64,000 nucleotides of DNA from Candidatus Thioglobus autotrophicus. Its GTDB lineage: Bacteria > Pseudomonadota > Gammaproteobacteria > PS1 > Pseudothioglobaceae. Made by a program: the position numbers and the translations under genes. Below, piece by piece: positions 1-47,380 of this stretch (position 1 is the stretch's first letter; the number at the start of each line of letters is the position of its first letter). The notes under the pieces are model-generated. The model did not search any database. It saw only the letters and a list, made by a program, of their open reading frames with translations, and was not told the origin of the DNA. The stretch spans positions 1-64,000 of the forward strand of contig JAKUUR010000001.1 of NCBI GenBank assembly GCA_022448455.1, written 5' to 3'.

Positions 1-792
1 TCAATTGAAAATATATCGATGCGTTTCCATGTACGTAATGGTAAGTCAATTCAGGCACTTAAAGATATATCTCTGGAGATCGAAGAGGGACAAATTATTA
101 CCGTACTTGGACCATCAGGTTGCGGCAAAACCACACTCCTAAATATTATTGCAGGTTTTTTGTCTCCGACTGAAGGGCAAGTCGTTCTCAACGATCAGAC
201 CGTTCTCGGTCCAGGTGCTGAACGTGGCATGGTTTTCCAGCAGGGGGCACTCTTTGAGTGGATGAATGTACGTTCAAATGTAGCCTTTGGGCCACGAATG
301 AAGGGTATGCCAAAAGCTCAACAAAATGAAAAAGTCAAGCACCTGTTGGAAATTGTCGGGCTTAGCGATTTCGAAGACAAAGCGGTTTACGAACTCTCGG
401 GTGGAATGCAGCAAAGGGTTGCTTTAGCACGCTGTCTAGCAAACGATCCAGATGTCATTTTGATGGATGAACCCCTGGGTGCACTGGATGCACTAACTCG
501 TGAAAAGATGCAGGGCCTGGTACTCAAACTCTGGAAGGATACCGGGAAAACAATCCTATTAATAACCCACTCGGTTGAAGAAGCAGTTTTGCTTGGCGAG
601 CGACTTCTGGTATTGGCTCCAAGACCAGGAAGGGTCCTAAAAGAATATAAACTCCCTTATGCTGAAATGGGTACCGGTAAGGATCTTCGAGAAGTCAAAA
701 AATCTAAAGGCTATATCGAAACTCGAGATGAAATACTTTCCATTATTTGGGAGATGGAAGAAGAAATTATGGGTAGAGTGGAGAACAACTAA
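1..792 (+). CDS. tauB: Taurine ABC transporter ATP-binding protein (5' partial)
   Basis: This is the ATPase subunit of a taurine/aliphatic sulfonate importer (TauABC); it sits on the cytoplasmic face and drives uptake through TauC. The frame is open from base 1, and the six codons before the first ATG (19) read like a normal N-terminal strand, so the true start is probably just outside the window. Counting from that ATG, Walker A is GPSGCGKTT (residues 31-39), followed by the ABC signature LSGGMQQR, Walker B VILMDEP and the switch histidine in LLITHSVEEA. The stop and the tauC start overlap (TAATG), indicating translational coupling. The binding protein tauA should lie upstream of the window. 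A role in nitrate or alkanesulfonate import cannot be excluded by sequence alone, but the tpa-ald-xsc genes nearby favour taurine. Confidence 0.93.
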   Translation, partial: SIENISMRFHVRNGKSIQALKDISLEIEEGQIITVLGPSGCGKTTLLNIIAGFLSPTEGQVVLNDQTVLGPGAERGMVFQQGALFEWMNVRSNVAFGPRMKGMPKAQQNEKVKHLLEIVGLSDFEDKAVYELSGGMQQRVALARCLANDPDVILMDEPLGALDALTREKMQGLVLKLWKDTGKTILLITHSVEEAVLLGERLLVLAPRPGRVLKEYKLPYAEMGTGKDLREVKKSKGYIETRDEILSIIWEMEEEIMGRVENN

Positions 793-2060
793 TGGCCATT
801 TTACTGATCTATATTGTAGTTTTTATTGTCTCTTTTTATGTAGTACACTTAGTGTCAAAGATGATGACTGCTCGGAAGGACTATACGAGTCTTAAAACTG
901 TAACATTTGGCGATGAAAGCGCCGTTTCACCTAACCGACCCGCATCAATTATCTCAGTTCTGGCTATTTTTATGATTTGGGGGGCATTTACGGGCTCAAA
1001 ATTGGTGCCGTTTCACGCGCCAGGTCCATTTATTGGTGAAACTACTTTTACCTATACCGCAATGAATGCAGCGGGTGAGACCGATGACGCACAAGTTTTC
1101 GTTACTGTTTACGATATACAGTCTGGCAAAACACCTCCGGAAATGGAAATTGACCCAGGTACAGGATTTGCAAAAAACGATACTGCCAATATTGTAGCTT
1201 GGCGTAGCGGGTTAATTAAAGTAAAACGTAATGATATTGGTAGTAAAGAGGATGGTTATAAAGTTATTGCTATCGATGGTCAGGAGATCTCCCCTAGTTC
1301 AGAAGTTTTTATAGATGATGCTCGAGTCTATATGACCGCTAAAGGTACACTGAGCTATACTCCAGAAAAAGGTTGGCAAATGCAACCGATCTGGCTACCT
1401 GCACCTGAAGCTGTTTGGTCAAGACTAGTTCTTGTAGCCTCTGAAGGGTATAAAAATTTTAGCTTGGTAGAGCACCTTGGTTGGTCGCTTATTCGTGTAA
1501 TTGTTGGATTTTTGGCGGGAGCCCTTATTGGTATTCCGCTTGGTTACGCGATGGGACTTTCGGGCTGGTTTCGTGGTTGGTTCGATCCAATCGTCGAATT
1601 TATGCGTCCAGTTCCGCCACTTGCGCTTATTCCGCTGGTAATTATCTGGTTTGGGATTGGTGAACAAGGCAAGATAATTTTGCTCTTCCTTGCATCACTA
1701 TGGATCATGACAATTTCTGCCAGAGCAGGCGTTTCTGGAGTCAATATTAGTAAAATTCATGCTGCATATTCTCTTGGGGCATCAAAGGGACAAATTATGA
1801 GACTGATAATTGTGCCTAATAGCCTACCTGAGATATTTACAGGTGCTCGTGTGTCTATGGGTGTTTGTTGGGGTACCGTTGTCGCGGCCGAACTTGTTGC
1901 AGCTCAGAAGGGTGCAGGTATGATGATAATCAATGCTGCAAAATTTCAAATGACCGACCTCGTTATTATGGGAATCGTTCTGATTGGAGTGATAGGATAC
2001 TCTATAGATATTCTCATGCGTATTGCAGAAAATTATCTGGTACCCTGGAAAGGTAAATAG
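792..2060 (+). CDS. tauC: Taurine ABC transporter permease with large extracytoplasmic insertion
   Basis: This is the membrane permease of the taurine importer. The C-terminal half (from about residue 202) is a typical BPD_transp_1 permease close to TauC, with RPVPPLALIPLVIIWFGIGE and the coupling EAA-type loop around AAYSLGASKGQI, ending in VPWKGK. At 422 residues it is about 150 longer than the usual 275. The extra sequence is an N-terminal membrane segment (residues 3-21), a second one (52-66), and then about 130 soluble residues (67-198). Part of the soluble stretch, TTFTYTAMNAAGETDDAQVF, resembles the core of bacterial Ig/cadherin-like (VCBS-type) repeats. The insertion lies between a membrane segment and the permease core, so it should face the periplasm. 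The gene is coupled to tauB by a 1-base overlap. Confidence 0.9.
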   Translation: MAILLIYIVVFIVSFYVVHLVSKMMTARKDYTSLKTVTFGDESAVSPNRPASIISVLAIFMIWGAFTGSKLVPFHAPGPFIGETTFTYTAMNAAGETDDAQVFVTVYDIQSGKTPPEMEIDPGTGFAKNDTANIVAWRSGLIKVKRNDIGSKEDGYKVIAIDGQEISPSSEVFIDDARVYMTAKGTLSYTPEKGWQMQPIWLPAPEAVWSRLVLVASEGYKNFSLVEHLGWSLIRVIVGFLAGALIGIPLGYAMGLSGWFRGWFDPIVEFMRPVPPLALIPLVIIWFGIGEQGKIILLFLASLWIMTISARAGVSGVNISKIHAAYSLGASKGQIMRLIIVPNSLPEIFTGARVSMGVCWGTVVAAELVAAQKGAGMMIINAAKFQMTDLVIMGIVLIGVIGYSIDILMRIAENYLVPWKGK

Positions 2061-2096: not shown

Positions 2097-4565
2097 ATGT
2101 CTGATATATTACCTAAAAAGGCACAAGTTGTAATTATTGGGGGAGGTGTTGTTGGCTGCTCGGTAGCTTATCATCTCGCCAAACTTGGCTATACTGATAT
2201 TGTCCTTTTAGAGCGAAAAAAACTTACCTCTGGAACTACATGGCATGCAGCAGGGCTTGTAGGTCAAATGCGCTCATCTTTAAATCTAACTCAAATGGTT
2301 CAGTACTCAGGCAACCTTTATGAGACATTAGAAGCCGAAACAGGTATGGCGACAGGGTATCGTCGTACGGGCTCTGTGAGTATTGCAACTAATGAGGAAA
2401 GGCTAAAAGAATTTAAAAGAAACGCTTCTCTAGCTAAAGTCCATGGCGTTGATGTTCAGATACTGTCACCTTCAGAACTCAAAGAAAAAATTAATCTATT
2501 TAATTTAGATGATGTTGTTGGCGGTGCATGGATTCCTAAAGATGGTAAAGCTGATCCTGCAAACGTTGCGATGGCTCTTGCTAAAGGAGCTAAAAACAAT
2601 GGAGTAAAAATATTTGAAGACGTTAAAGTGACTGGAATCCATAAAGAAGATGGAAAAGTCAAAGGTGTCCAGACTGAATTAGGCGAGATACAATCCAGTG
2701 TTGTTGTTAACTGCGGAGGAATGTGGGCAAGGGAAATTGGAAAAATGGCAGGCGTATCTGTACCACTTCATGCCTGTGAACATTTCTATGTGCTTACCTC
2801 ATCTGTACCAAATTTAGGTGATATGCCTGTTGTAAGAGTGCCTGATGAGTCTGCATATTACAAGGAGGACGCTGGAAAAATTTTGATTGGTTTATTTGAG
2901 CCAAACGCTAAACCTTGGGGACAGAATGGGATACCTGAAGATTTCTGTTTTGATCAATTACAAGATGACTTAGAGCACTGTATGCCTTACCTTGAATTGG
3001 CAATGAAGAGATTACCGGTAATTGAAAACTTAGGTATAGAAACTCTTTTCAATGGCCCAGAAAGTTTCACACCTGATGATAATTTTCAAATCGGCGAATC
3101 ACCTGAATTGAGAAACTTTTTTGTTGCAGCTGGATTCAATTCAATTGGTATTCAGGCTGCTGGAGGAGTAGGCAAATATCTTGCAGAATGGATTGTTGGT
3201 GGGGAACCTCCTTGTGATTTATGGGAGGTCGATATCAGAAGAAACGACCCATTCCAAAATAATAAACTTTACCTAGCTAATCGAGTCACGGAGACGCTAG
3301 GTTATCTATACGAAAATCATTTCCCATATCACCAATATAGCACTGCTAGAGAGCTCCGTCGAACACCACTGTATCAATTCTTTAAAGATCGTGGTGCCTG
3401 TTTTGGGGAGGTAGCAGGATGGGAAAGGGCTAACTGGTTTGTGCCTCAACATTTAATTGGTAAAGTTCGGGCTGAATATGAGTATTCATGGGGAAAACAG
3501 AATTGGTTTGACTTTCATAAATTAGAGCATCAAGCTATCAGAGAAGCTGTTGGCATGTATGAAATGTCATCTTATTCCAAAATCAGAATCAAAGGCTCTG
3601 ATGCAATGGATTATCTTCAACTCATTTGCGCAAACGATGTTGATGTTTCAACTGGAAGAATTGTTTATACGCAATGGTTAAATGAAAAAGGTGGAATTGA
3701 GGCTGACGTCACAATTACACGTTTAGATGTTGATGATTATCTCGTTGTAAGTGGTACGCTATGTGCTAACCGTGATATGAATTGGCTGAAAAAGAATATG
3801 CCTAAGGATGCACACTGCTCTTTATTTGATTCTACAAGCGCAGAAGGTTGTATTGCAATTATGGGTCCTAATTCACGAGAACTTTTACAATCATTAACAG
3901 ACACTGATTTAAGTAATGAAAATCTCCCATTTACCAGTGTCTGTAATCTAGAAATTGGTATGGCAACGGTTCGGGCACACCGTATTACCTATGTTGGTGA
4001 GTTGGGATGGGAATTATATTTTCCCATTGAATTTTCTAACTATATTGCTGAGTTGATTGAGTCAATAGGAGAAAAATTTTCTTTGAAACTTTGTGGAATG
4101 CATTCTGTAGATAGTTGTCGTATTGAAAAGGCTTACAGACATTTTGGTCATGACATTACAGATGAAGATCATGTGCTCGATGCGGGCCTTGGATTTGTTG
4201 TTAAGCCTGATAAAAAACCTTCTAAATATGGAAAATTTATTGGTTATGATGCTGTAAGGAAAAAACAAACTAACGGATGTGAGAAGAGGGTAATGCAATT
4301 CCTATTAATTAATCCAGATATAATGCTCTACCATGACGAACCTATTCTTAGGAATGGCGAGATAATCGGCTATTTAACTAGCGGAGCATACGGACATACG
4401 TTAGGCGGAGCAGTTGGATTGGGTTATATCGACTGTAAACCTGGTGAAAGTGACGAGGACTTGATGACTGCTGAATACTGTATTGAGGTTGAAGGTGTCA
4501 TTGAAAAAGCTAGCACATCACTAAAGCCCATGTACGACCCTCTAAATAAAAAAATTAGAATTTAA
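2097..4565 (+). CDS. FAD-dependent oxidoreductase / GcvT-fold dehydrogenase (dimethylglycine or sarcosine dehydrogenase-like)
   Basis: This is a two-module flavin demethylase of the DMGDH/SDH family. An N-terminal DAO domain (about 9-370) begins with VVIIGGGVVGCSVAYHL, a Rossmann FAD site. A central FAO_M linker follows, then a folate-binding GcvT domain (about 440-720) and a GCV_T_C barrel. His50 in TTWHAAGL aligns with the histidine that carries covalent FAD in mammalian dimethylglycine dehydrogenase. The family oxidises N-methyl groups, passes formaldehyde to tetrahydrofolate and gives electrons to ETF. Its place 36 bases after tauC, in a taurine cluster, suggests an N-methylated substrate imported with taurine, such as N-methyltaurine, but sarcosine, dimethylglycine or another methylamine is equally compatible. 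The etfBA-etfQO genes at 19.6-23 kb would take the electrons. Confidence 0.85.
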   Translation: MSDILPKKAQVVIIGGGVVGCSVAYHLAKLGYTDIVLLERKKLTSGTTWHAAGLVGQMRSSLNLTQMVQYSGNLYETLEAETGMATGYRRTGSVSIATNEERLKEFKRNASLAKVHGVDVQILSPSELKEKINLFNLDDVVGGAWIPKDGKADPANVAMALAKGAKNNGVKIFEDVKVTGIHKEDGKVKGVQTELGEIQSSVVVNCGGMWAREIGKMAGVSVPLHACEHFYVLTSSVPNLGDMPVVRVPDESAYYKEDAGKILIGLFEPNAKPWGQNGIPEDFCFDQLQDDLEHCMPYLELAMKRLPVIENLGIETLFNGPESFTPDDNFQIGESPELRNFFVAAGFNSIGIQAAGGVGKYLAEWIVGGEPPCDLWEVDIRRNDPFQNNKLYLANRVTETLGYLYENHFPYHQYSTARELRRTPLYQFFKDRGACFGEVAGWERANWFVPQHLIGKVRAEYEYSWGKQNWFDFHKLEHQAIREAVGMYEMSSYSKIRIKGSDAMDYLQLICANDVDVSTGRIVYTQWLNEKGGIEADVTITRLDVDDYLVVSGTLCANRDMNWLKKNMPKDAHCSLFDSTSAEGCIAIMGPNSRELLQSLTDTDLSNENLPFTSVCNLEIGMATVRAHRITYVGELGWELYFPIEFSNYIAELIESIGEKFSLKLCGMHSVDSCRIEKAYRHFGHDITDEDHVLDAGLGFVVKPDKKPSKYGKFIGYDAVRKKQTNGCEKRVMQFLLINPDIMLYHDEPILRNGEIIGYLTSGAYGHTLGGAVGLGYIDCKPGESDEDLMTAEYCIEVEGVIEKASTSLKPMYDPLNKKIRI

Positions 4566-4571
4566 TATAGA

Positions 4572-5075
4572 ATGGTATATGTTTTTTTTGGTGTATCTTG
4601 CTCTGGAAAAACCACTATAGGAAAAAAAATATCTATTAAATTAGATGTTCCATTCTATGATGCCGATGACTTTCATTCTGAAGCAAACATTGAAAAAATG
4701 AGTCAAGGGATTCCTCTTGACGATTTTGACCGACTAGCTTGGCTTCAAAAAATTTCCAAAAAAATAGATGAATGTAATGAAAAAGGAAATGCCATTTTTG
4801 CATGTTCAGTATTAAAGGAAGAGTATAGGGAAATATTATCTGATTCATTTCAGAAAAAAGTTATATTTATTTTTTTAGATATTAGTAGGACTGAAGCTGT
4901 AAAAAGATTAAAAATGAGAGCGAACCATTTCTTTCCAATAGAATTACTAGATAACCAGTTTGAAATACTTGAGAGCCCATCTAATGCAATTAAAGTTAAT
5001 GCTAGCAATGATATAGATCTAGTATGTGATGAAATATATATTCAGATAATGGTTGAACCTACTTTAGGAAATTAA
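4572..5075 (+). CDS. gntK: Gluconokinase-like P-loop kinase
   Basis: This 167-residue cytosolic kinase matches the gluconokinase (GntK/IdnK) family in size and motifs. The P-loop GVSCSGKT occupies residues 7-14, followed by FYDADDFHSEANIEKMSQG and the P-L-D-D-x-D-R-x-x-W motif (PLDDFDRLAWL), which is characteristic of gluconokinases. A conserved CSVLKEEYRE segment follows and the C-terminal half has the expected LxIS..xAxxRLxxRxxHFF pattern. It would phosphorylate gluconate to 6-phosphogluconate. It starts 6 bases after the dehydrogenase and its end overlaps the tauR end by 4 bases, so it is the last gene of the plus-strand tau transcript. No gluconate transporter or Entner-Doudoroff gene is adjacent. 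A kinase acting on another small polyol or acid is possible. Confidence 0.8.
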   Translation: MVYVFFGVSCSGKTTIGKKISIKLDVPFYDADDFHSEANIEKMSQGIPLDDFDRLAWLQKISKKIDECNEKGNAIFACSVLKEEYREILSDSFQKKVIFIFLDISRTEAVKRLKMRANHFFPIELLDNQFEILESPSNAIKVNASNDIDLVCDEIYIQIMVEPTLGN

Positions 5076-6553
5076 GATTGAGACATCATTGCCTTAATTT
5101 CATTTACGATGATTTCAATACCCTTGTTTATCTTATTTGTATCAATTGCAGAATAACCAAGATGTAAATAGTTTTTTGGTGAGTCTTGACTAAAGAAAGA
5201 CGCATCTCCAGGCCTTAAAACTACGCCTTTTTTGAGCAATTCTTGACAAAGTTTTGCACTATTAATAGATTCTGGTATTTTAATCCAGAATGTTGATCCT
5301 CCGACCGTCGGTGCACATGACAACAAAGGTTCTTCTTTAATTTTTTCATTAATTAAATTCCATCGCTCTTTATTGGTTCTCTGTATTTTGGTAAACATAT
5401 TGTGGTAATGGCCCAGTCCAATAAACAATGCAACTGAGCGTTGATTGTTTGCAGGTATATGTCTCAACATCAAACGTCTTAAGGCCCTTGCTTCTTTGAT
5501 AAAGCTTTCTGCTGCAACCATATAGCCTAGACGAAGGCCGGGCGCAAAAGCTTTTGAAAAACTACCACAATAAATAACATTATTATGATCATCTAAACTT
5601 TTTAAAGAAGGATGGGGTTTTTCTTGAAAATTAATCTCGGCCTCATAGTCATCCTCTATGATGACTATGTTATTTTGTTGTGCACTTTCTAACAACTGTT
5701 TTCTTCGCTCCATACTCATTGTCACGCCGGTAGGGTACTGGTGACTCGGTGTGGTGTAGATCATATCGATATGAGGTTTGATCTCATCAACCATGATGCC
5801 TTCATGGTCTACAGAAATTGGAATAATATTATCGGTTCTAAAGCTATAAATATTCCTAACATCTGGATATCCAGGGTTTTCGATACCAACAACTGTTTTT
5901 TCCTTAACCAGAAGGCTTGCCAGGATATAAATGGCATTCTGACTACCAGAAGTTATTAAAATTTGATTTTTATTGGCCCAAATTCCACGCTTTGGCAGTA
6001 CTTTGGATTGAATTTGTTGAATTAGAGATGGATCGTCACTGTCCACATGGTCAATATTCCACTTTTTAATCTCTGGAACGGTTGAGGATTGCCTTACCAC
6101 CTCTCGCCATTCATAAAAAGGAATTAGGCTATTGTCAAGCTGACCTACAGTAAAAGAATAAGGCAATTTTTGCCAATCTTCTGATTTTTGAATATTGGTT
6201 TTAAATGACGGTTTTTTTGTAATTAATTGGTCAAGCCATTGTGGTGATTTCTGAGTTACTGATGAAACTTCTTTAGTATCAGAATAATTTTCATAAATTT
6301 TATCGTTTACAAAATAACCCTTCCTCGGTTGAGCAGTAATATAGCCGTCAAACTCTAACTCTTTATATGCAGCTATAACAGTGTTTCTAGCAACTTTTAG
6401 GGATTTCGCCAGGTTCCTCGAAGAGGGCAGAGATTCATTCGGTCCTATTAAGCCATTTGTAATAGCATCTACTAATTGTTGACGAATTTGAAGTTGCAGA
6501 GTTCTTGGTTTATCAAGCCTTAAAGAAAAAAACTGATTCCACATTTCGTTCAT
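5072..6553 (-). CDS. tauR: MocR-family transcriptional regulator of taurine catabolism (GntR-aminotransferase fusion)
   Basis: This is a PLP-binding transcription factor of the MocR/PdxR type. Residues 10-83 form a GntR winged helix (SLPSSRNLAKSLKVARNTVI is the recognition region). Residues about 125-490 form a class I aminotransferase fold, with Lys334 in GSFSKAFAPG as the PLP-anchoring lysine. In Rhodobacter, the homologue TauR activates taurine genes. Here the gene is divergent from tpa across 116 bases and convergent with the gluconokinase (4-base overlap at the 3' ends), which fits control of tpa-ald-xsc. The ATG at 6553 is the first possible in the frame, and its upstream region holds two CTGG-centred repeats. 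GABA regulation (GabR) is the main alternative, but the gene context argues for taurine. Confidence 0.88.
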   Translation of the reverse strand: MNEMWNQFFSLRLDKPRTLQLQIRQQLVDAITNGLIGPNESLPSSRNLAKSLKVARNTVIAAYKELEFDGYITAQPRKGYFVNDKIYENYSDTKEVSSVTQKSPQWLDQLITKKPSFKTNIQKSEDWQKLPYSFTVGQLDNSLIPFYEWREVVRQSSTVPEIKKWNIDHVDSDDPSLIQQIQSKVLPKRGIWANKNQILITSGSQNAIYILASLLVKEKTVVGIENPGYPDVRNIYSFRTDNIIPISVDHEGIMVDEIKPHIDMIYTTPSHQYPTGVTMSMERRKQLLESAQQNNIVIIEDDYEAEINFQEKPHPSLKSLDDHNNVIYCGSFSKAFAPGLRLGYMVAAESFIKEARALRRLMLRHIPANNQRSVALFIGLGHYHNMFTKIQRTNKERWNLINEKIKEEPLLSCAPTVGGSTFWIKIPESINSAKLCQELLKKGVVLRPGDASFFSQDSPKNYLHLGYSAIDTNKINKGIEIIVNEIKAMMSQS

Positions 6554-6557
6554 AAGT

Positions 6558-6590
6558 CTGGTCTATTAATTGCAAGTTTGCTGGATCTAT
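6558..6590 (+). promoter_or_regulatory. Candidate TauR direct repeats between tauR and tpa
   Basis: Two similar decamers, CTGGTCTATT at 6558-6567 and CTGGATCTAT at 6581-6590, lie in direct orientation 23 bases apart, start to start, which is about two helical turns. They resemble the CTGGACTTAA-type direct repeats reported for TauR in Rhodobacter. The first lies only a few bases upstream of the tauR start, so binding could also repress tauR. The match is partial, so the assignment is an inference. Confidence 0.35.
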
Positions 6591-6669
6591 ACATATCTTT
6601 ATTCTATACCTCTTATATTTTACAATTCAATACTCTGAATTGCAGTAAATTTAATATCAAGGATTTATT

Positions 6670-8028
6670 ATGTCTGAAAGCACAATTATACAAAATGATA
6701 AGAAACATGTTTGGCATCATTTAACGCAGCATAAAGCTTTTGAATCGAGTGACCCTCTTGTGGTTTCAGAAGGGAAAGGGATGTATGTCACTGATATCAA
6801 AGGTGATGAATATCTAGACGCAACTTCTGGCGGAGTATGGACAGTCAACCTTGGCTATGGAAGGGATGAAATGGTAGATACTATCAGTAATCAGTTGTCA
6901 AAAATTCCTTACTTTGCAGGTTCTATTGGTAATGAGCCAGCTGCACAATATGCAAAAGAGTTAACCTCAATTATGCCTGGTTTAGATCGTGTTTACTATT
7001 CGAATTCAGGTTCTGAGGCTAATGAAAAGGGCTACAAAATGGTACGACAAATTGCCCATTTTCATAATGAAGGAAAAAAACACAAAATTATATATCGTGA
7101 CCGGGATTATCATGGAACAACCATTGGAGCAATGAGCTCTTCTGGTCAAATTCAAAGAACAAAGCAATATGGACCATTTGCGCCTGGTTTTGTTGAAATG
7201 CCAAATTGCTGTTGTTATCGCTGCCCGTTTGGTAAAAAATATGGTGAATGCAATATTGAGTGTGCTCATGCTCTTGAAGATGTCATTCAAAAAGAGGGTG
7301 CAGATAATATCGGTTCTGTAGTTTTAGAGTCAATAACTGCAGGTGGTGGAGTTATTACCCCTGTGCCAGAATATTTCCCAATCATTGAATCAATCTGTAG
7401 AAAGTATGATGTGTTGCTTCATATTGACGAAGTGGTTTGCGGTCTTGGAAGGACAGGAAAATGGTTTGGTTATCAAAATTATGATGTGCAACCCGATATT
7501 GTTACTATAGCCAAAGGTCTGGCAGCCGGTTATGCAGCGATATCAGTAACAGTTACTACTGATAAAGTTTTTGAAGCGTTTAAAGAGGATCCAAGTAATC
7601 CTGACAGCTATTTCAGAGATATATCTACATTTGGAGGATGCACGGCTGGTCCAGCAGCTGCTTTGGAAACTTTAAATATTATTAAAAGAGATAAGCTTCT
7701 TGACAATGTTAATACTGTTGGTGATTATTTAAAAAGTAAGTTGCATGAACTTGAAGAAAAACATCAAATAATTGGTGAAGTTCGTGGAAAGGGTTTGTTT
7801 TGTGGCGTAGAGCTTGTCAAAGATAGACAAACTAGAGAGCCAGTAGATGAAACAGTTGCAATGTCAATCGTTGGTCATTGCTTAAAAAATAAAGTAATGA
7901 TTGGTAGAATTAATAGATGTTTTGAACATAACAATAATGTATTACTATTTAGTCCCGCTTTTATATGTACTAAGGATGAAGTTGATCTTATTGTTGAAGC
8001 GGTTGACAATGCCCTTGAAGTTAATTAA
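6670..8028 (+). CDS. tpa: Taurine--pyruvate aminotransferase
   Basis: This class III PLP aminotransferase (452 residues, normal family length) transfers the amino group of taurine to pyruvate, yielding sulfoacetaldehyde and L-alanine in the cytosol. The PLP lysine is Lys282 in VTIAKGLAAGYAA, the phosphate-binding stretch is NSGSEANEKGYKM (112-124), and the Asp in HIDEVVCGLGRTG pairs with the pyridine nitrogen. A cysteine-rich patch, PNCCCYRCPFGKKYGEC (178-194), is typical of the taurine/beta-alanine-pyruvate branch. It has a strong context: ald follows at 30 bases and xsc after that. AGGAT lies just before the ATG as a ribosome site. Beta-alanine or hypotaurine could be side substrates. Confidence 0.95.
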   Translation: MSESTIIQNDKKHVWHHLTQHKAFESSDPLVVSEGKGMYVTDIKGDEYLDATSGGVWTVNLGYGRDEMVDTISNQLSKIPYFAGSIGNEPAAQYAKELTSIMPGLDRVYYSNSGSEANEKGYKMVRQIAHFHNEGKKHKIIYRDRDYHGTTIGAMSSSGQIQRTKQYGPFAPGFVEMPNCCCYRCPFGKKYGECNIECAHALEDVIQKEGADNIGSVVLESITAGGGVITPVPEYFPIIESICRKYDVLLHIDEVVCGLGRTGKWFGYQNYDVQPDIVTIAKGLAAGYAAISVTVTTDKVFEAFKEDPSNPDSYFRDISTFGGCTAGPAAALETLNIIKRDKLLDNVNTVGDYLKSKLHELEEKHQIIGEVRGKGLFCGVELVKDRQTREPVDETVAMSIVGHCLKNKVMIGRINRCFEHNNNVLLFSPAFICTKDEVDLIVEAVDNALEVN

Positions 8029-8058: not shown

Positions 8059-9177
8059 ATGATTATTGGAGTACCAAAAGAAATTAAAAACCATGAATAC
8101 AGAGTTGGCTTAACACCAAGAAGTGTTAGGGAATGTGTTAGAAACGGCCACAAAGTGATGGTCCAAAATAATGCTGGTAGCGGAATCGGTGCAAGTGATG
8201 ATGATTACATTGATAATGGTGCCGAAATTATAGCGACTGCTGAAGAGATTTTTGCAACTGCAGAAATGATCGTCAAGGTTAAAGAACCTCAAGCAAATGA
8301 ACGCGCTATGCTGAGAGAGGGTCAAATACTTTATACCTATCTTCATCTCGCTCCAGACCCTGAGCAGACAAAAGATTTAGTTAAGAGTGGTGCTACATGC
8401 ATTGCTTACGAGACGGTAACGTCTCCTCGAGGCGGTTTACCATTATTAGCTCCAATGTCAAAAGTTGCTGGGAGAATGGCTATTCAGGCAGGTGCACACT
8501 TTTTAGAACACCCTAATGGCGGCATGGGAGCCTTGCTTGGTGGTGTACCTGGTGTTAACCCACTAAAAGTTGTTATTTTAGGGGGAGGTGTTGTAGGTGC
8601 CCATGCCGCTCATATGGCAGTAGGAATGGGGGCTGATGTTTGGGTGCTTGACAATAATCCTGACGCATTAGAGAAACATTGGCAACAATTTGGTCGCAGT
8701 ACGAATACCGTTTTTTCAACTCAAAGTACAGTTGAAGAATATGTACTAAAAGCTGATTTAGTCATTGGAGGAGTTTTAATACCCGGTGCTGAAGCGCCAA
8801 AACTAGTTACAAAAGAGATGATTAAGGCAATGAAGCCTGGTTCAGTTGTTGTTGATGTTGCAATAGACCAGGGTGGCTGCTTTGAGACTTCTAAAGCAAC
8901 AACGCATGCAGATCCAACATATGTGGTGGATGATGTTGTTCATTATTGTGTAGCCAATATGCCTGGTGGTGTTCCCAAAACATCAACATTTGCGCTTAAT
9001 AATGTAACTCTCCCATTCGCAATTGACATTGCCAATAAAGGGGTTAAACAAGCATTACTTGACGATGAACACCTTAGAGCCGGTTTAAATGTTCATAAAG
9101 GCAAGGTAACATGTCTTGAAGTAGCCGAAGATTTGGGTTATGAATACGTTTCAGCGCTTGAAGCGCTACAAAATTAA
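8059..9177 (+). CDS. ald: Alanine dehydrogenase
   Basis: This NAD-dependent alanine dehydrogenase (372 residues) oxidatively deaminates L-alanine to pyruvate, ammonium and NADH. In this operon it regenerates the pyruvate used by Tpa, making taurine nitrogen available as ammonium. The AlaDh/PNT N-terminal domain starts with [20 protein letters not shown], which contains the substrate arginine and the usual lysine/histidine motifs ([16 protein letters not shown]). The NAD-binding Rossmann site is [20 protein letters not shown] (about 171-190). The C-terminal signature [16 protein letters not shown] is intact. It sits between tpa and xsc with 30 and 20 base gaps, so the three are co-transcribed. 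Confidence 0.96.
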
Positions 9178-9197: not shown

Positions 9198-10970
9198 ATG
9201 GCGAAAATGACTGCAAGTGAAGCCTTTGTTGAAACAATGGTTGTAAATGGTGTTAAGGATATCTTTGGCATTATGGGTTCAGCATTCATGGATGCTATGG
9301 ATATTTTTGAACCTGCAGGCATAAGATTAATTCCAGTGGTTCATGAGCAAGGTGCTGCCCATATGGCTGATGGCTATTCCAGAGTGAGCGGAAAGCATGG
9401 TGTTTGTATTGGTCAAAATGGCCCAGGTATCTCAAACTGTGTGACTGCAATTGCTGCAGCTTATTGGGCTCATAGTCCAGTGGTAATTGTTACGCCAGAG
9501 GCCGGTACTGGCGGTATTGGTTTAGGTGGATTCCAAGAAACCAATCAGCTGCCAATGTTTCAAGAATTTACTAAATATCAAGGTCATGTCGTCAATCCAA
9601 TGAGAATGGCTGAATTTACTGGCCGTTGCTTTGATAGAGCAATGAGCGAAATGGCGCCTACTCAACTCAACATACCGAGGGATTATTTTTATGCTGAGGG
9701 CGAATTTACAATCCCTCAACCTCGAAGAATTGATCGAGGTACGGGTGGCGAAGAAACTTTAAATGAGGCTGTAGCTATAATCGCTAAAGCACAATTTCCT
9801 GTAGTTGTTTCTGGTGGTGGTGTAGTGATGGCCGATGGCGTTCAAGAATGTATAGCATTAGCTGAGCGTTTAGGAGCTCCAGTTGTGAATAGTTATCTCC
9901 ATAACGACTCTTTTCCTGCAAGTCATGACCTTTGGTGTGGACCATTAGGATATCAAGGCTCGAAAGCAGGCATGAAACTGATATCACAGGCAGACGTTGT
10001 CATTGCCCTAGGAACTCGCTTAGGACCGTTTGGAACGTTACCTCAGCATGGAATGGATTATTGGCCAAAAGACGCTAAAATCATCCAAATAGATGCAGAC
10101 CATAAGATGCTTGGACTGGTTAAGTCAATTACTGTAGGTATTTGTGGTGATGCTAAAGCTGTCGCAGAAGCGCTTTGCGAAAAATTAGTTTCTGCAAAAC
10201 TTTCCTGCGATTCTACGAAAGAAGAAAGGGCTAAAAAGATTGCCGATGAAAAAGCGGTTTGGGAACTAGAGCTGGATGAGTGGATTCATGAAACTGACTC
10301 ATATAGCATGGACATGATCGCCAATAAGGAGGAGGGTTGTCTTCACCCTAGACAAGTTTTACGTGAACTAGAAAAAGCAATGCCTGAGGACGTCATGGTG
10401 TCAACAGATATTGGTAATATTAATTCTGTTGCAAATAGTTACCTTCGTTTTGAGAAGCCTCGTAGCTTCTTTGCAGCAATGAGCTGGGGTAATTGTGGAT
10501 ACGCCTTCCCAACAATAATCGGAGCAAAAGCTGCAGCACAACATAGACCCGCTGTCTCTTATGCGGGTGACGGCGCCTGGGCGATGAGTATGGTTGAGAC
10601 GATGACATGTGTTCGCCATGATATCCCTGTCACAGCAGTTGTCTTCCATAACCGCGATTGGGGTGCAGAAAAGAAGAACCAAGTAGACTTCTATGACAGA
10701 CGCTTCGTTGCTGCTGAACTTACAGATCAACACTTTGTGAATATTGCAAAGTCAATGGGCGCTGAAGGCATTCGTGTTGATAAACTTGAGGATGTAGGTC
10801 CGGCACTGAAAAAAGCCGTAGACATGCAAATGAATGAAAGAAAGACAACAATTATTGAAATCATGTGTACTCGTGAACTCGGTGATCCGTTCAGAAAGGA
10901 TGCATTGAGTAAGCCAGTCCGTCATTTGGCTAAATATAAAAACTACAGTAGCGATACAAAACATCGTTAA
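9198..10970 (+). CDS. xsc: Sulfoacetaldehyde acetyltransferase
   Basis: This thiamine diphosphate enzyme cleaves the C-S bond: sulfoacetaldehyde plus phosphate gives acetyl phosphate and sulfite. It has the three-domain TPP fold: a PYR domain with catalytic Glu50 (VVHEQGAAHMADGYSR), a central domain, and a PP domain with the Mg/ThDP motif GDGAWAMSM followed by HNRDWGAEKKNQ, a stretch typical of Xsc rather than acetolactate synthase. The length, 590 residues, is normal. TAGGAGAAG upstream of the ATG is a good ribosome site. The product acetyl phosphate is the substrate of the GntR-Pta fusion at 18.4-19.6 kb. No sulfite exporter or sulfite dehydrogenase is present in the window, so sulfite handling must be encoded elsewhere. 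Confidence 0.97.
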   Translation: MAKMTASEAFVETMVVNGVKDIFGIMGSAFMDAMDIFEPAGIRLIPVVHEQGAAHMADGYSRVSGKHGVCIGQNGPGISNCVTAIAAAYWAHSPVVIVTPEAGTGGIGLGGFQETNQLPMFQEFTKYQGHVVNPMRMAEFTGRCFDRAMSEMAPTQLNIPRDYFYAEGEFTIPQPRRIDRGTGGEETLNEAVAIIAKAQFPVVVSGGGVVMADGVQECIALAERLGAPVVNSYLHNDSFPASHDLWCGPLGYQGSKAGMKLISQADVVIALGTRLGPFGTLPQHGMDYWPKDAKIIQIDADHKMLGLVKSITVGICGDAKAVAEALCEKLVSAKLSCDSTKEERAKKIADEKAVWELELDEWIHETDSYSMDMIANKEEGCLHPRQVLRELEKAMPEDVMVSTDIGNINSVANSYLRFEKPRSFFAAMSWGNCGYAFPTIIGAKAAAQHRPAVSYAGDGAWAMSMVETMTCVRHDIPVTAVVFHNRDWGAEKKNQVDFYDRRFVAAELTDQHFVNIAKSMGAEGIRVDKLEDVGPALKKAVDMQMNERKTTIIEIMCTRELGDPFRKDALSKPVRHLAKYKNYSSDTKHR

Positions 10971-18407: not shown

Positions 18408-19625
18408 ATGAATAAAAAACTTTACCAAACAGTAATTGAGTATATCAATAAGGAAATAAAAAGCGGTAATCTTACTAATGGAGATGCAATTCCTTCTGAA
18501 TCTCAACTATCCAAATTGCTAGATGTTAGTGTTGGTACCATCAGAAAAGCAGTTGACAAATTGGAAAACAACAACACCTTGTACCGCCAACACGGTAAAG
18601 GCACATTCGTTTCCGATTATGGATTCGACAATAGATTACTAAACAAACTAACCAAAAAAGTTCAAAAAAAGTTTCCTCGCATATTACTACCTGAATCAAG
18701 CGATGAAAGAGTTCTACAGGCCGCTATAAATATCTCTAGAAAAAAAATTGCACAAATTGTCCTTCTCGGTGATGAAGCTAAGATCTCTCAACAGATAGCC
18801 AGATTAAATCAAGGCTTGGATAGTGAGTTTAAATATTTAGATACGAAGGATATTCAATTAAAAAATATTTATGCCGAAATCTTTTATAGAAAAAGGAAGC
18901 ATAAAGGGATGTCGTTGGATGAAGCGAAAAAGCTGTTAGAAGACGATACAGTTTTTGCTATGTTAGCTTTAGAAAATGATGATGCGGACGGAGTTGTAAC
19001 TGGAGCCATAACGCCTAGCCAGACAGTTCTTAGTAATGCCCTAAGGATAATTGGGGTTGCTGATAACAGCAAGCTTGTTTCTAGCTTCTTTCTAATGATT
19101 TTTGATGCAAAACATCAAAGCTATGGTAGTGAAATGATATTTTCTGATTGCGCGATGAATGTTGATCCTGATTCTGATGAATTGGCAGAAATAGCAAAAA
19201 GTGCATACAAATCAGCTAAAAGCTATCTTGATATCGAACCGAAAATCGCTATGCTTTCTTTTTCAACTAATAAAAATACAAAACATACTCAGGTAGAAAA
19301 AGTAAGTGTTGCGACTAGCACTTTAAGAAAGAAGCTTCCCGAGGCTGACATTATTGGCAATATTCAGCTTGATGCTGCTTTAGATAGTATTGTTCTTAAA
19401 ACAAAGTCTCCAGAAGCAAATTTTACACCTCCAGCTAATGTCCTTATCTTCCCAAACTTAGATGCTGCGAATATTGGCTATAAGCTTGTTCAACGATTTT
19501 CAGGCGCTAAAGCCATAGGGCCAATTCTTCAAGGGATGGCCAAGCCAGTAAACGATCTATCAAGAGGTTGCAGTGTTGATGAGATATTTAATACAGTAGT
19601 CATTACTGCAAACCAGTGTAAGTAA
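18408..19625 (+). CDS. pta: Phosphate acetyltransferase with N-terminal GntR winged-helix domain
   Basis: This 405-residue chimera joins a GntR-type DNA-binding domain (residues 3-68, with AIPSESQLSKLLDVSVGTIR as the helix-turn-helix and HGKGTFVSDYG as the wing) to a complete PTA_PTB catalytic domain (about 84-402). The latter opens with FPRILLPESSDERVLQAA and contains DADGVVTGAITPSQTVLSNA, SSFFLMIFDAK, the VATSTLRKKLPEADIIGNIQ region and FPNLDAANIGYKLVQRFSGA. It should convert acetyl phosphate from Xsc to acetyl-CoA. Pta is normally either a bare catalytic domain or carries a P-loop/DRTGG extension; a GntR head is unusual. The domains share one frame with no internal start between them. It converges with etfQO, with 1 base between the stops. 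Confidence 0.93.
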   Translation: MNKKLYQTVIEYINKEIKSGNLTNGDAIPSESQLSKLLDVSVGTIRKAVDKLENNNTLYRQHGKGTFVSDYGFDNRLLNKLTKKVQKKFPRILLPESSDERVLQAAINISRKKIAQIVLLGDEAKISQQIARLNQGLDSEFKYLDTKDIQLKNIYAEIFYRKRKHKGMSLDEAKKLLEDDTVFAMLALENDDADGVVTGAITPSQTVLSNALRIIGVADNSKLVSSFFLMIFDAKHQSYGSEMIFSDCAMNVDPDSDELAEIAKSAYKSAKSYLDIEPKIAMLSFSTNKNTKHTQVEKVSVATSTLRKKLPEADIIGNIQLDAALDSIVLKTKSPEANFTPPANVLIFPNLDAANIGYKLVQRFSGAKAIGPILQGMAKPVNDLSRGCSVDEIFNTVVITANQCK

Positions 19626-19626
19626 A

Positions 19627-21246
19627 CTACATACTGATGTAATTTGGACCGCCACCCCCTTCTGGAGGCGTCCAAGTAATATTTTGTGCTGGGTCTTTAA
19701 TGTCACAAGTCTTACAATGAAGACAATTTTGAGCATTTATTTGGAAATAATCCGACCCTTCTTTTTCAATGATTTCATAGACTCCGGCAGGGCAGTATCT
19801 CTGTGCCGGTTCGTCATATTTTTGAAGATTATAATCCAGCGGAATTTTAGCATCAGCTAGTTTTAAATGAACTGGCTGGTCCTCCTCGTGGTTCGTGCCA
19901 GAAAGAAACAAGGAAGAACTAATGTCAAAACTTAAAACATCATCTGGTGCAGGGTAGGATTTTATTTTAGAATCTTTGGAAGGCTTTAAAGAGTCACAAT
20001 CTCGCTCATCATCCTTGATATCAATTGGTAATTTATTACGAAAAATATTGGACTCAATGAAGTTGTAAATTGAGCCTCCATAAAAACCAAACTTATGAAG
20101 TGCGCTACTAAAGTTTCTTGCTTTATGAAGCTCCTTGTAAAGGCCGCTAGACTTAAACATATCGTCAAAATCGCAGACCTCTTCGGTAAGTACTTTATTT
20201 ACATATTCTGCAGCAAGGATTCCAGACTGTAATGCGCAATGACTGCCCTTGATTTTTCCGGGATTCAATGTGCCTGCGTCGCAACCAATAATCATTCCGC
20301 CATCAAAGTCCATTTTAACGAGTGAGTGAAGACCTCCTTTGGTGATAGCTCTTGCACCATAAGAAACTCGTTTGCCGGACTCCAAGAATTCTTTAATCTT
20401 AGGGTGTTTTTTATATTGTTGAAACTCTTGAAAAGGGCTATGGTGAGGATTGTTGTAGTTCAAGTCCACAATCAGTCCAACCGCTATTCGGTTATCGCTA
20501 AAATGATATAAAAATCCTCCACCTGATGTACCCTTATTAAGTGGCCAACCAATTGTATGAAGGACATCGCCTAAGCTATGCTTATCTGTATCAACCTCCC
20601 AAATTTCTTTAAAGCCAATTGCGAAGTGTTGTGGTGTTTTACTTTCATCTAGATTGAATTCTTTAATCAGCTGTTTACCTAAGTGACCCCTTGAACCTTC
20701 TGCAAATATAGTTTGTTTTGCATAAATATCCATACCCGGCGTCCAGTTACCTTTTTGATTTCCCTGCTTATCAAGACCCATATCGCCTGTTGCGATTCCA
20801 CAAACTCTGCCGCTTTTATCAAGTAAATAATTCTGAGCAGGAAACCCTGGAAAAATATCGACACCGAGTTCGATAGCTCTTTCTCCAATCCATTGACAGA
20901 GTTCACCTAGAGAAATTAAATAATTACCATTGTTGTGTAATCCTTTAGGTGTAAGCCAAGAGGGCACTTTGATACTTTTGTTGCTGCCGGTTAGGAGATA
21001 AACATCATCTCTTTTAACAGGAGTATTAAGAGTGGGGCAACTACTTGCCTCTTCAGGAAAAAGGTCAAATAATGTTTCAGGTTCAAAAACAGCTCCTGAA
21101 ATAATGTGAGAGCCTATTTCAGAGCCTTTTTCTAATAGACAAACGGAAAGATTTTGATTAAGTTGTTTTAGTTTGCATGCTGATGCCAGGCCTGATGGTC
21201 CTCCACCAACAACTACAACATCATATTCAATTGACTCTCTTTCCAT
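19627..21246 (-). CDS. etfQO: Electron transfer flavoprotein-ubiquinone oxidoreductase
   Basis: ETF-QO moves electrons from reduced ETF to ubiquinone at the cytoplasmic membrane. At 539 residues it matches the family. Residues about 8-40 hold the FAD site VVVVGGGPSGLASACKLKQ. The membrane-associated quinone region includes LHSLVKMDFDGGMIIGCDAG and LNPGKIKGSHCALQSG. The C-terminal 4Fe-4S domain shows RYCPAGVYEI and NCLHCKTCDIKDP, supplying four cluster cysteines, and ends with the conserved WTPPEGGGGPNY. It lies 20 bases after etfA in an etfB-etfA-etfQO operon. Within this window the likely donor dehydrogenase is the DMGDH-like protein at 2.1-4.6 kb. Confidence 0.96.
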   Translation of the reverse strand: MERESIEYDVVVVGGGPSGLASACKLKQLNQNLSVCLLEKGSEIGSHIISGAVFEPETLFDLFPEEASSCPTLNTPVKRDDVYLLTGSNKSIKVPSWLTPKGLHNNGNYLISLGELCQWIGERAIELGVDIFPGFPAQNYLLDKSGRVCGIATGDMGLDKQGNQKGNWTPGMDIYAKQTIFAEGSRGHLGKQLIKEFNLDESKTPQHFAIGFKEIWEVDTDKHSLGDVLHTIGWPLNKGTSGGGFLYHFSDNRIAVGLIVDLNYNNPHHSPFQEFQQYKKHPKIKEFLESGKRVSYGARAITKGGLHSLVKMDFDGGMIIGCDAGTLNPGKIKGSHCALQSGILAAEYVNKVLTEEVCDFDDMFKSSGLYKELHKARNFSSALHKFGFYGGSIYNFIESNIFRNKLPIDIKDDERDCDSLKPSKDSKIKSYPAPDDVLSFDISSSLFLSGTNHEEDQPVHLKLADAKIPLDYNLQKYDEPAQRYCPAGVYEIIEKEGSDYFQINAQNCLHCKTCDIKDPAQNITWTPPEGGGGPNYISM

Positions 21247-21266: not shown

Positions 21267-22193
21267 TTATAAGACATGGTCATTCAATTCTTTTAAGGCA
21301 CCAAATAGATCAGTCTGCCATACTAAATCAGCCATTCTAGCCATTGGTGCATCTGGGTCACTGTTAATGACCACAATCACCTGAGAATCTTTCATGCCAG
21401 CAAGGTGTTGAATAGCGCCCGATATTCCAACGGCTAAGTATAGTTTAGGCGCAACAACTTTACCAGTCTGGCCGACTTGATAATCGTTTGAAATAAAGCC
21501 TGCATCTACTGCAGCCCTTGATGCACCAACCGCCGCATCAAGTTTGTCAGCTAATTGCTCAATTAAAGCAAAATTATCCTTTGATCCAAGTCCACGCCCA
21601 CCTGAAACAATTCTATCCGCTGTTGTTAGTTCAGGTCGCTCTGATTGAGATTCATGAAGAGAAATAAAGTTTGATTTTTGTTCGGGTATGGGCAATGATA
21701 ACTCTTCAACGGTGGCAGAACCTCCGTCACCAGAATGTTCAAAAGCAGTGGCTCTAACTGTCATCACGATAGTGTCATCACTCGACTCAACAGTCGCCAT
21801 GATGTTGCCCGCATAAAGTGGTCTCACAAAGGTGTTATTTGATTTGATTTCACATACATCAGATATTGGTTGAACGTCTAGTAGGGCGCCTACCACTGGT
21901 AAAATATTTTTACTATAGGTGGAAGATCCAGAAAGCAGGTATTTATAATCAGTCATCACCTCTGCCACTAATTTACTGGCAACCCCAACACTTACATGTT
22001 CTAACTTTGAGTCAGCAATAACTTTTACGGTATTAATACTCTTTAGTGAAGCAACCGAGGCGGCATTAGCCGAATCATCTGTCAGCACTAATGCATCAAT
22101 CGTATCTGAAAGTTGAGTTGCAGCTGTTATTGCAGCGCGACTGTTAGAGCTTACTTCAGACCCGTTTAGTTCGATTAATATTAGTGCAGACAT
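21267..22193 (-). CDS. etfA: Electron transfer flavoprotein subunit alpha
   Basis: This is the FAD-carrying subunit of the soluble ETF heterodimer. The N-terminal domain is variable. The C-terminal FAD domain has the family signature VSGGRGLGSKDNFALIEQLA and the cofactor loops VGQTGKVVAPKLYLAVGISG and IQHLAGMKDSQVIVVINSDP. Its 308 residues are typical of group I ETF, the housekeeping electron carrier for acyl-CoA and N-methyl dehydrogenases, not the bifurcating type. Start and stop overlap with etfB by 1 base (TAATG), so the two subunits are translationally coupled. Confidence 0.97.
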   Translation of the reverse strand: MSALILIELNGSEVSSNSRAAITAATQLSDTIDALVLTDDSANAASVASLKSINTVKVIADSKLEHVSVGVASKLVAEVMTDYKYLLSGSSTYSKNILPVVGALLDVQPISDVCEIKSNNTFVRPLYAGNIMATVESSDDTIVMTVRATAFEHSGDGGSATVEELSLPIPEQKSNFISLHESQSERPELTTADRIVSGGRGLGSKDNFALIEQLADKLDAAVGASRAAVDAGFISNDYQVGQTGKVVAPKLYLAVGISGAIQHLAGMKDSQVIVVINSDPDAPMARMADLVWQTDLFGALKELNDHVL

Positions 22194-22954
22194 TACAGGA
22201 CCCCCAACTGGCTGAGTTCGGAAAACAGCTCTTCAGCTGATTGGACTTGTTTTGAAGCCCTATCCTTGGTTCCAGACTCTTCAACACTGATAACTTTGAC
22301 TCTAGGGCTGATATCAATGTCAAAGCTTGATATTTCGATCGTTTCTAAAGGTTTGGATCTCGCTTTCATGATATTAGGCAAAGAGGCGTATCTTGGTTCA
22401 TTGAGCCTCAAATCAACAGTAACAATGGTTGGTAAATTTAACTGTCTAGTTTCAATTCCAGAGTCAATTTCTCGACAAACTTCGACGCTTTTCCCATCAT
22501 CACTTAGTTGAAATTTAGAGATAAAAGTTCCCAGTGAATAATCCAAAAGGCCAGAGAGAATTTGCCCGGTTTGGTTGTTGTCATTATCGACAGCCTGCTT
22601 ACCCATAATGACAAGTTGAGCCTCTTCGCGTTTAACAATATTTGCCAAAATCTTACCTAGATGAAGGGGTTGTAGGTCAAGCTCGGAGTCTGTTTTGACA
22701 AAAATAGCTCGGTCCACACCCATTGCTAAAGCAGTTCTCAGGGTATCTATGGTTTTTTCTGTCCCAATACTGACAGCTATGGTTTCGCTAGCAGCATTGC
22801 TCTCTTTAATCTTTAAAGCTTCTTCAACAGCAATCTCGCAAAAAGGGTTCATTGCCATTTTTGCATTAGTCAAATCAACTAATTGAGTTTGTTTGTTAAC
22901 CCTGGCCTGAGTGTAAGGATCAAGTACACGTTTAATTGGGATAATTATTTTCAT
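22193..22954 (-). CDS. etfB: Electron transfer flavoprotein subunit beta
   Basis: This is the AMP-binding beta subunit of ETF. It starts with MKIIIPIKRVLDP and contains the family core MAMNPFCEIAVEEALKIKES and the recognition-loop region LPTIVTVDLRLNEPRYASLP, the segment that docks to partner dehydrogenases. The length of 253 residues is standard. It is the first gene of etfB-etfA-etfQO. The 128 bases upstream, shared with the end of creC, hold an 11-base direct repeat and an inverted repeat that may belong to its control region. Confidence 0.97.
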   Translation of the reverse strand: MKIIIPIKRVLDPYTQARVNKQTQLVDLTNAKMAMNPFCEIAVEEALKIKESNAASETIAVSIGTEKTIDTLRTALAMGVDRAIFVKTDSELDLQPLHLGKILANIVKREEAQLVIMGKQAVDNDNNQTGQILSGLLDYSLGTFISKFQLSDDGKSVEVCREIDSGIETRQLNLPTIVTVDLRLNEPRYASLPNIMKARSKPLETIEISSFDIDISPRVKVISVEESGTKDRASKQVQSAEELFSELSQLGVL

Positions 22955-32001: not shown

Positions 32002-33255
32002 ATGTTTGAAAAATCTCTAACTTTAGCTGAAGTTGATTCTGATATTGCAAATGCAATTACTGCTGAAGAAGCTCGCCAGGAAGCTCATATTGAATTAATA
32101 GCTTCTGAAAACTATACATCAACTGCAGTAATGATTGCTCAGGGCTCTCAACTTACTAATAAATATGCAGAAGGCTACCCTTACAAGCGTTATTATGGAG
32201 GCTGTGAACATGTTGATGTTGTAGAACAGCTTGCAATAGACCGTGCAAAAGCTTTATTTAATGCTGATTATGCAAATGTACAGCCACACTCTGGTTCACA
32301 AGCAAATGCTGCAGTTTTTCAGGCCTTGTTGGTTCCAGGTGACACTATATTGGGTATGAGTTTAGCTCATGGTGGTCATTTGACTCATGGTGCTGCACCA
32401 TCATTTTCAGGCAAGAATTTTAATGCAATTCAGTATGGCCTTAATGCTGATACTGGAGAAATTGACTATGATGAGGTAGATCGATTAGCGCAAGAACACA
32501 AACCAAAAATGATTATTGCAGGATTTTCTGCATATTCACGTATTGTTGATTGGGATCGTTTTAGATCTATTGCAGACTACGTTGGTGCGTACTTGTTTGT
32601 TGATATGGCACATGTTGCAGGTCTTGTCGTAACTGGTGATTATCCTTCACCAATAGCAATTGCAGACGTAGTGACAACAACTACTCATAAAACTTTAAGA
32701 GGGCCTCGTGGCGGTTTGATTTTAGCGAGAGCCAATGAAGAGATTGAAAAGAAACTCAACTCCGCCATTTTCCCAGGTATTCAGGGTGGACCACTGATGC
32801 ACATTATTGCAGCTAAAGCGGTGGCTTTTAAGGAAGCAATGAGTGATGATTTCAAAGCTTACCAAAAGCAAGTTGTAGTGAACGCAAGGGCTATGGCCAA
32901 TGTTTTCATGAAACGAGGTTATGAAGTCATTTCCGGCGGTACTGATGATCATTTGTTTTTAGTTAGTTTTATTTCACAAGGATTGACAGGAAAAGATGTT
33001 GATGCTGCTTTGGGCTCAGCTCATATTACAGTTAATAAAAATGCAGTGCCTAATGATCCGCAATCTCCTTTTATTACCAGCGGTATACGTGTGGGCACTC
33101 CAGCAGCAACAACTAGAGGTTTTGGTGAATCGGAATGCAGTGATCTGGCTAATTGGATGTGTGACATTTGTGATGACATTAAGAATGAATCTATTGTGGA
33201 TGATGTCAGGGAAAAAGTTGAAAAACTTTGCGCAAAATTTCCCGTTTATAGGTAA
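32002..33255 (+). CDS. glyA: Serine hydroxymethyltransferase
   Basis: SHMT converts serine and tetrahydrofolate to glycine and 5,10-methylene-THF. It is the main source of one-carbon units and works with ThyA (47.4 kb) and the GcvT-type dehydrogenase. The 417 residues are standard. [10 protein letters not shown] and [15 protein letters not shown] are family signatures, and the PLP lysine is in [16 protein letters not shown]. The gene is followed by nrdR at 5 bases, a conserved pairing in gammaproteobacteria. Confidence 0.98.
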
Positions 33256-46595: not shown

Positions 46596-47380
46596 AATAT
46601 ATCGTTATTGATCCCGTAATTCTGGATTTGGGTATTGTAAAAATACATTGGTATGGTGTAATGTATTTATTGGCTTTTCTGCTTGCCTATTTACTCGCTA
46701 AATACAGAGCAAATTTGAGTCATGAATGGAGTACTCAGCAAGTTGATGATCTCATTTTTTATGGAGCTTTGGGCGCAGTTTTGGGCGGTCGCTTAGGCTA
46801 TATGGTGTTTTACAGTTTGCCAAGTTTTTTAGCCAACCCTTTAATTTTTTTAGATTTTCAAAATGGTGGAATGTCTTTTCATGGTGGTTTTCTTGGCGTT
46901 TTGCTTGCAATACTTTTATTTAATCGCAAGTCAAAAAAAAGCTTTTTTCAAACAACCGACTTTATTGCTCCATTAGTCCCTCTTGGTTTGGCCTTTGGAA
47001 GGATTGGTAATTATATAAATGCTGAGCTTTGGGGTAAGGTTACTACTAGTGCTTGGGGTGTATATTCACCTGACCAAAGCGGTATGTGGGCTCAGCGCTA
47101 CCCAACACAACTCTTTGAAGCTCTACTCGAGGGTGTTGTGCTATTTGTCATTTTGTGGATTTTTAGCAAAAAAAATCGACCATTGATGGCTACATCTTCC
47201 CTATTTTTGATTTTCTATGGATTCTTTAGATTTATAATTGAGTTCATCAGAGTGCCAGACGCTCAATTAGGGTATTTGGCTTTTGAGTGGTTAACGATGG
47301 GGCAGTTATTAAGCTTTCCGATGCTCGTTATTGGTATTTATTTATTTTTTAGGTCTTACTATTCAGAGAAACAGTTATGA
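46592..47380 (+). CDS. lgt: Prolipoprotein diacylglyceryl transferase
   Basis: Lgt is a polytopic inner-membrane enzyme that transfers diacylglycerol from phosphatidylglycerol to the lipobox cysteine. It has about seven membrane segments in 262 residues. Diagnostic are [14 protein letters not shown] (His/Gly-Gly) and [14 protein letters not shown], the Lgt signature. Its clients in this window include BamD and Pal. It overlaps both the DUF1643 gene and thyA by 4 bases; lgt-thyA pairing is common in gammaproteobacteria. Confidence 0.97.

Follow-up and report, generated by a model that had tools for sequence, protein, structure and literature searches.

A SarDH/DMGDH-like dehydrogenase lies in a taurine locus

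The DNA analysed here (the window) is a 64,000-nucleotide stretch from Candidatus Thioglobus autotrophicus (contig JAKUUR010000001.1). It opens with a taurine locus in the order tauB-tauC-DH-(gntK-like)-[tauR]-tpa-ald-xsc, where DH is the dehydrogenase gene under study. ORF calls and domain profiles mark tauB as an ABC ATPase (1..792, + strand, 5' end beyond the contig) and tauC as an ABC permease with a long N-terminal extension (792..2060, +); tauA is absent because the window begins at a contig end, and is present in relatives. The DH gene (2097..4565, +) starts 36 bp downstream of tauC, the spacing claimed in the sequence-only reading and borne out by the ORF coordinates. Next come tauR (5072..6553, −), a TauR-type MocR regulator with a GntR and an aminotransferase-like domain, 35–38% identical to MocR genes of taurine clusters elsewhere; tpa (6670..8028, +), a class-III aminotransferase assigned to the taurine:pyruvate type from domain profiles and context; ald (8059..9177, +; TIGR00518 above cutoff), an alanine dehydrogenase for pyruvate regeneration; and xsc (9198..10970, +), a sulfoacetaldehyde acetyltransferase scoring 1012 bits against TIGR03457 (cutoff 676).

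Further downstream the window encodes a phosphate acetyltransferase, Pta (18408..19625, +; TIGR00651 above cutoff), likely acting after Xsc, an ETF:quinone oxidoreductase (19627..21246, −; domains Fer4_ETF_QO and ETFQO_UQ-bd) as the putative electron route, and etfA (21267–22193) and etfB (22193–22954), a pair (21267..22954, −; ETF and ETF_alpha domains) that would supply the electron acceptor. GlyA (32002–33255) and ThyA (47377–48171) are encoded as well. The sequence-only reading had sent electrons to this etf operon and one-carbon units to GlyA and ThyA; the genes are indeed there, but they are generic and show no linkage to the taurine operon.

Two details of the locus deserve mention. A gluconokinase (GntK-type) gene (4572–5075) sits 6 bp after the DH gene and before tauR; the sister locus L020 lacks it, and it looks like a local insertion. 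The N-terminal extension of TauC, ~190 amino acids (window positions 792–1380), is missing in the E. coli TauC model and common to Rhodobacterales TauC.

By ORF, Pfam and phmmer, the DH gene encodes an 822-aa SarDH/DMGDH-like, FAD- and folate-dependent dehydrogenase, the proposed N-methyltaurine demethylase. Pfam places DAO at residues 11–365, FAO_M at 369–422, GCV_T at 425–701 and GCV_T_C at 730–814, confirming the DMGDH domain order reported earlier. In phmmer searches of the PDB the nearest entries are mammalian dimethylglycine dehydrogenase (DMGDH; 4pab/5l46, E 3e-140, residues 8–784), and Arthrobacter globiformis (A. globiformis) dimethylglycine oxidase (DMGO, 1pj5) also matches over nearly the full length; given this full-length homology to solved structures, the fold can be taken as already fixed. 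The flavinylation histidine, His50 (codon 2244..2246, +), again agrees with the sequence-only reading and lies in a GTTWHAAGL motif aligned with mammalian DMGDH. Three further equivalences were read through an alignment of an orthologue to 1pj5 and then positioned in the window protein: His229 (codon 2781..2783, +) and Tyr254 (2856..2858, +) correspond to His225 and Tyr259, the His/Tyr catalytic dyad of DMGO (PMC5082570), and Asp537 (3705..3707, +) to the folate-domain Asp552, the residue changed in 3gsi. In domain order, flavinylation histidine, dyad and folate-site aspartate the protein thus belongs with the DMGDH/SarDH family.

The motif at the flavinylation histidine reads HAAG in the window protein and in human DMGDH, and HAPG in DMGO. 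A near-flavin alanine/isoleucine versus proline/valine has been tied to dehydrogenase versus oxidase behaviour (PMC5082570). If, as we infer, the HAAG/HAPG residues are those near-flavin residues, the HAAG motif would suggest a dehydrogenase rather than an oxidase.

Conservation in Pseudothioglobus and predicted control by TauR

Across Pseudothioglobus the gene and the taurine locus show tight linkage. The gene is kept in place at 75–94% identity, and the order tauABC-DH-tauR-tpa-ald-xsc is conserved. Among the named relatives are single-cell gammaproteobacteria, Candidatus Thioglobus and Candidatus Pseudothioglobus aerophilus. Among 29 genomes of the genus, 22 carry the gene (one copy truncated), 21 carry xsc and 19 carry both; in the two genomes with xsc and without the gene, the contig stops inside the operon ahead of the gene position. 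In the lineage of loci L023 and L137 tauABC is not adjacent, yet the gene still stands beside tauR-tpa-ald-xsc. There (L023, 497–3819) a second DMGDH-like gene, 43% identical, and a choline/ethanolamine-kinase-like gene lie divergently beside the demethylase, in the place that tauABC occupies in other lineages. The truncated orthologue comes from one single-cell genome (L031, 7101–8360, and L054): it ends near residue 419 and is followed by unrelated genes, reflecting either truncation or misassembly.

Between tauR and tpa we find a predicted TauR operator, a 34-nt direct repeat (6558..6591, +) located by pattern match and kept in relatives; it resembles the Rhodobacter capsulatus (R. capsulatus) TauR consensus CTGGACYTAA (PMC5320631). 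The double-box TauR-like pattern matches only here in the window and 0 times in shuffles, while single-box matches were no better than chance; only the double-box pattern is informative. In relatives the same 34-nt element stands upstream of tauA. Since the repeat occurs at tauR/tpa and, in relatives, before tauA, the demethylase gene would fall within a predicted TauR operon.

The window genome holds one further double-box match (L214, G000:C34, ~6273–6306), downstream of sat and upstream of a gene for a 264-aa protein followed by aprB and aprA; this box is also present in G006 and G021. Its position suggests that sulfite oxidation by the reverse APS route may also be TauR-induced. TauR probably controls uptake together with the demethylase, transamination and desulfonation, plus sulfite oxidation.

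Orthologues are recurrently linked to taurine genes

We refer to orthologues 51–60% identical to the window protein as DH55, and to a paired second enzyme, 30–34% identical to it, as DH33. DH55 is common in Alphaproteobacteria: 201 of the 298 genomes of one Rhodobacterales-type family contain a match at E <= 1e-230. Orthologues are recurrently linked to tauABC, tpa and xsc, in at least six phylogenetically separate cases, so the linkage to taurine uptake and breakdown genes extends beyond one lineage. On a Paracoccus seriniphilus plasmid (L155) tauABC (orthologues 59/71/62% identical) is followed by a cupin gene, DH33, DH55, etfBA, folD and purU, and then by xsc on the opposite strand. L217 and L161 taken together run from xsc through ackA, citrate synthase, a molybdopterin/Fe-S/DmsC-type complex, an XRE-cupin regulator, DH33, MttB, DH55 and purU to tauR, tpa, a further DMGDH-like gene and tauABC. 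DH55, DH33, an XRE gene, tauR, tpa and tauABC lie together in L160; in L162, DH55, DH33 and XRE are followed by xsc, tauR, an AptA-like aminotransferase and tauABC. L112 and L113 combine xsc, pta, an AptA-like aminotransferase, DH55 and tauR; a Tpa orthologue adjoins DH55 in L168 and L196; and DH33, DH55 and xsc are found together in L024. In the alphaproteobacterial islands the demethylases are bordered by the XRE-cupin regulator and not by TauR only.

On a maximum-likelihood tree (a larger FastTree was also made) the Pseudothioglobus proteins form their own branch, and 8 changes of the taurine label are required, of which starred branches force at least 6, gains and losses not being distinguished. 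Loci L160–L164 had been chosen because TauC lies on the same contig. In 66 loci chosen otherwise, Tpa or Xsc occurs within 10 kb in 4, classified by hand, against ~0.5 expected on the rough assumption of 1.5 Tpa/Xsc loci per 4 Mb (Poisson p 0.002; treating L112 and L113 as a single case raises it to 0.014). TauC within 20 kb gives a weak signal (4 of ~115 genomes of one family, ~1.2 expected). L163 and L183 were left out of the taurine-context count, since BHMT as well as taurine genes lies close by.

Substrate and reaction

Because the pairing of demethylase and taurine genes recurs in unrelated bacteria, the substrate is probably a methylated taurine. Many orthologues at similar distance are nevertheless found in glycine-betaine clusters, where they probably carry out the sarcosine step: DH55 is often paired with DH33 and an XRE-cupin regulator, GFA, BHMT, GbcA or MttB, that is, with betaine demethylation. 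Of the tandem pair it is DH33, not DH55, that lies closest to characterised DMGDH (542 versus 443 bits to mammalian 4pab), which makes DH55 the better candidate for the monomethyl, SarDH-like step, rather than a dimethylglycine dehydrogenase proper. The family is SarDH-like, its clade holds betaine-cluster members, and taurine specificity rests on context. Clear clustering in a substrate-specific clade had been named as the finding that would speak against N-methyltaurine; the clade does look SarDH-like, yet its members occur in more than one substrate context. No residue separating taurine-linked from betaine-linked members, and none specific to a sulfonate substrate, was found among those aligned. 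Pro238, considered as a marker of taurine linkage, was dropped since Rhizobiales and Paracoccus members that lack a taurine context have it too.

These betaine contexts, together with the close spacing of the dimethylglycine and sarcosine dehydrogenase genes SPO3400 and SPO3396 in Ruegeria pomeroyi (R. pomeroyi; PMC4744692), are what one would expect if the enzyme were a conventional sarcosine or dimethylglycine dehydrogenase from glycine-betaine catabolism, still acting on glycine derivatives although its gene lies in a taurine operon. We consider this unlikely: the operon contains no betaine gene, glycine would feed nothing in it, and the linkage to taurine genes is tight within the genus and reappears in other bacteria. 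The window genome, moreover, has three more DMGDH-like genes and two separate sets of SoxAB sarcosine oxidase, and these probably serve sarcosine.

A different N-methylated substrate, such as N,N-dimethyltaurine only, N-methyl-beta-alanine or N-methyl-GABA, would be in keeping with the acceptance of omega-methylamino acids by related flavoenzymes (MabO, listed in PMC10590968), with the overlap of TauR regulons and GABA-type genes (PMC5320631) and with the window operon having just one member of the tandem pair. That Tpa and Xsc are encoded directly downstream indicates taurine as the product instead, and the enzyme closer to DMGDH is the paired DH33, not the window enzyme, which makes such a substrate quite unlikely. 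Action on taurine itself, in place of TauXY, was rejected: the locus encodes Tpa, and with its folate half intact the enzyme needs a substrate that can donate a one-carbon unit.

Oxidation could also take place on the other side of the nitrogen, yielding methylamine and sulfoacetaldehyde and bypassing Tpa. Weinitschke and colleagues reportedly found in 2006 that Alcaligenes faecalis and Paracoccus versutus release methylamine when they break down N-methyltaurine. PbfC and PbfD, encoded beside PhnW, convert N-methyl-AEP to phosphonoacetaldehyde and methylamine (PMC10590968). The window enzyme, by contrast, retains an intact folate-binding half with its aspartate, and the folD and purU genes that accompany orthologues support transfer of the methyl carbon to folate over release of methylamine; we regard this route as very unlikely.

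The best reading, to which we assign a probability of roughly 0.7, is that the enzyme catalyses N-methyltaurine + THF + oxidised ETF -> taurine + 5,10-CH2-THF + reduced ETF. At the level of sequence it is founded on the fold, the cofactor and folate residues, the operon, the repeat element and the recurrent context. A SarDH-like FAD/THF dehydrogenase would have been recruited into the taurine regulon. TauABC may import N-methyltaurine and perhaps dimethyltaurine; the covalent FAD would oxidise the N-methyl group, and the GcvT half would hand the one-carbon unit to THF, so that taurine and 5,10-methylene-THF are formed. The taurine would proceed via Tpa, Xsc and Pta, the flavin would be reoxidised by ETF and ETF-QO, and TauR would induce uptake, demethylation and taurine breakdown jointly. 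ETF as the acceptor is supported by etfBA next to orthologues in L155, L114 and the Pseudomonas locus L027, the last with ETF-QO too. The original proposal, in which N-methyltaurine becomes taurine to feed Tpa while carbon goes to folate and electrons to ETF, stands as the best explanation, short of proof: in its favour are the genus linkage, the TauR-type operator before tauA in relatives, the recurrent alphaproteobacterial linkage to tauABC/tpa/xsc, and etfBA, folD and purU by orthologues.

Relation to known systems

Mitochondrial DMGDH (4pab, 5l46) and SarDH share with the window enzyme the domain order, flavinylation histidine, His/Tyr dyad and folate domain, and an ETF acceptor is expected; the window gene differs in its TauR-type taurine operon, its proposed sulfonate substrate and a bacterial clade only about one third identical. 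A. globiformis DMGO has full-length homology and shares the dyad and the Asp552 equivalent, but carries HAPG where the window protein has HAAG. The Roseobacter DMGDH and SarDH (SPO3400/SPO3396, PMC4744692), which probably fall in the same clades as DH33 and DH55, have BHMT nearby, whereas the window copy lies in a taurine operon without a betaine gene. PbfB, PbfC and PbfD by PhnW (PMC10590968) likewise funnel an N-methylated analogue through a flavoenzyme into a transaminase-initiated pathway; their substrate, unlike that of the proposed enzyme, is N-methyl-AEP, methylamine is released, and neither taurine nor sarcosine is oxidised. Rhodobacterales TauR regulons resemble the window in having tauABC, tpa, xsc and pta under CTGGACYTAA direct repeats, and some include an unnamed COG0665 oxidoreductase for which no role in demethylation was proposed (PMC5320631).

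A literature search that lacked most subscription journals yielded nothing linking a DMGDH-type enzyme to taurine, nor, in the literature searched, any genes for methylated-taurine breakdown. The kind of enzyme and its chemistry are known; the substrate and the position in a pathway appear to be new. Tri-, di- and monomethyltaurine co-occur with taurine in a red alga (PMC10538540), and N-methyltaurine is among the dominant osmolytes of vent and seep tubeworms, going by the title of Yin et al. 2000 as cited in PMC4158864. Methylated taurines from algae and animals are probably turned into taurine in a widespread ocean bacterium by a previously undescribed route. If so, the gene would serve as a marker, in a widespread lineage, for a hidden branch in the marine cycles of organic sulfur, nitrogen and one-carbon compounds, and the enzyme is open to direct testing.

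More tentatively, and at somewhat less than even odds, marine Proteobacteria may possess a hitherto undescribed folate-linked pathway covering all the methylated taurines, in which MttB-family enzymes act on trimethyltaurine, DMGDH-like enzymes on dimethyltaurine and the SarDH-like window enzyme on N-methyltaurine, leading to Tpa, Xsc and sulfite oxidation; Pseudothioglobus would keep the last demethylation under TauR.

As to the other DMGDH-like genes of the window genome, one (L144, 8806–12788, G000:C70) adjoins an MttB-family methyltransferase gene, and the pair probably serves a quaternary amine such as glycine betaine. Another (L143, 5132–10515, G000:C45) lies near a MATE transporter and a match to the DMSP lyase DddP that falls below the curated cutoff.
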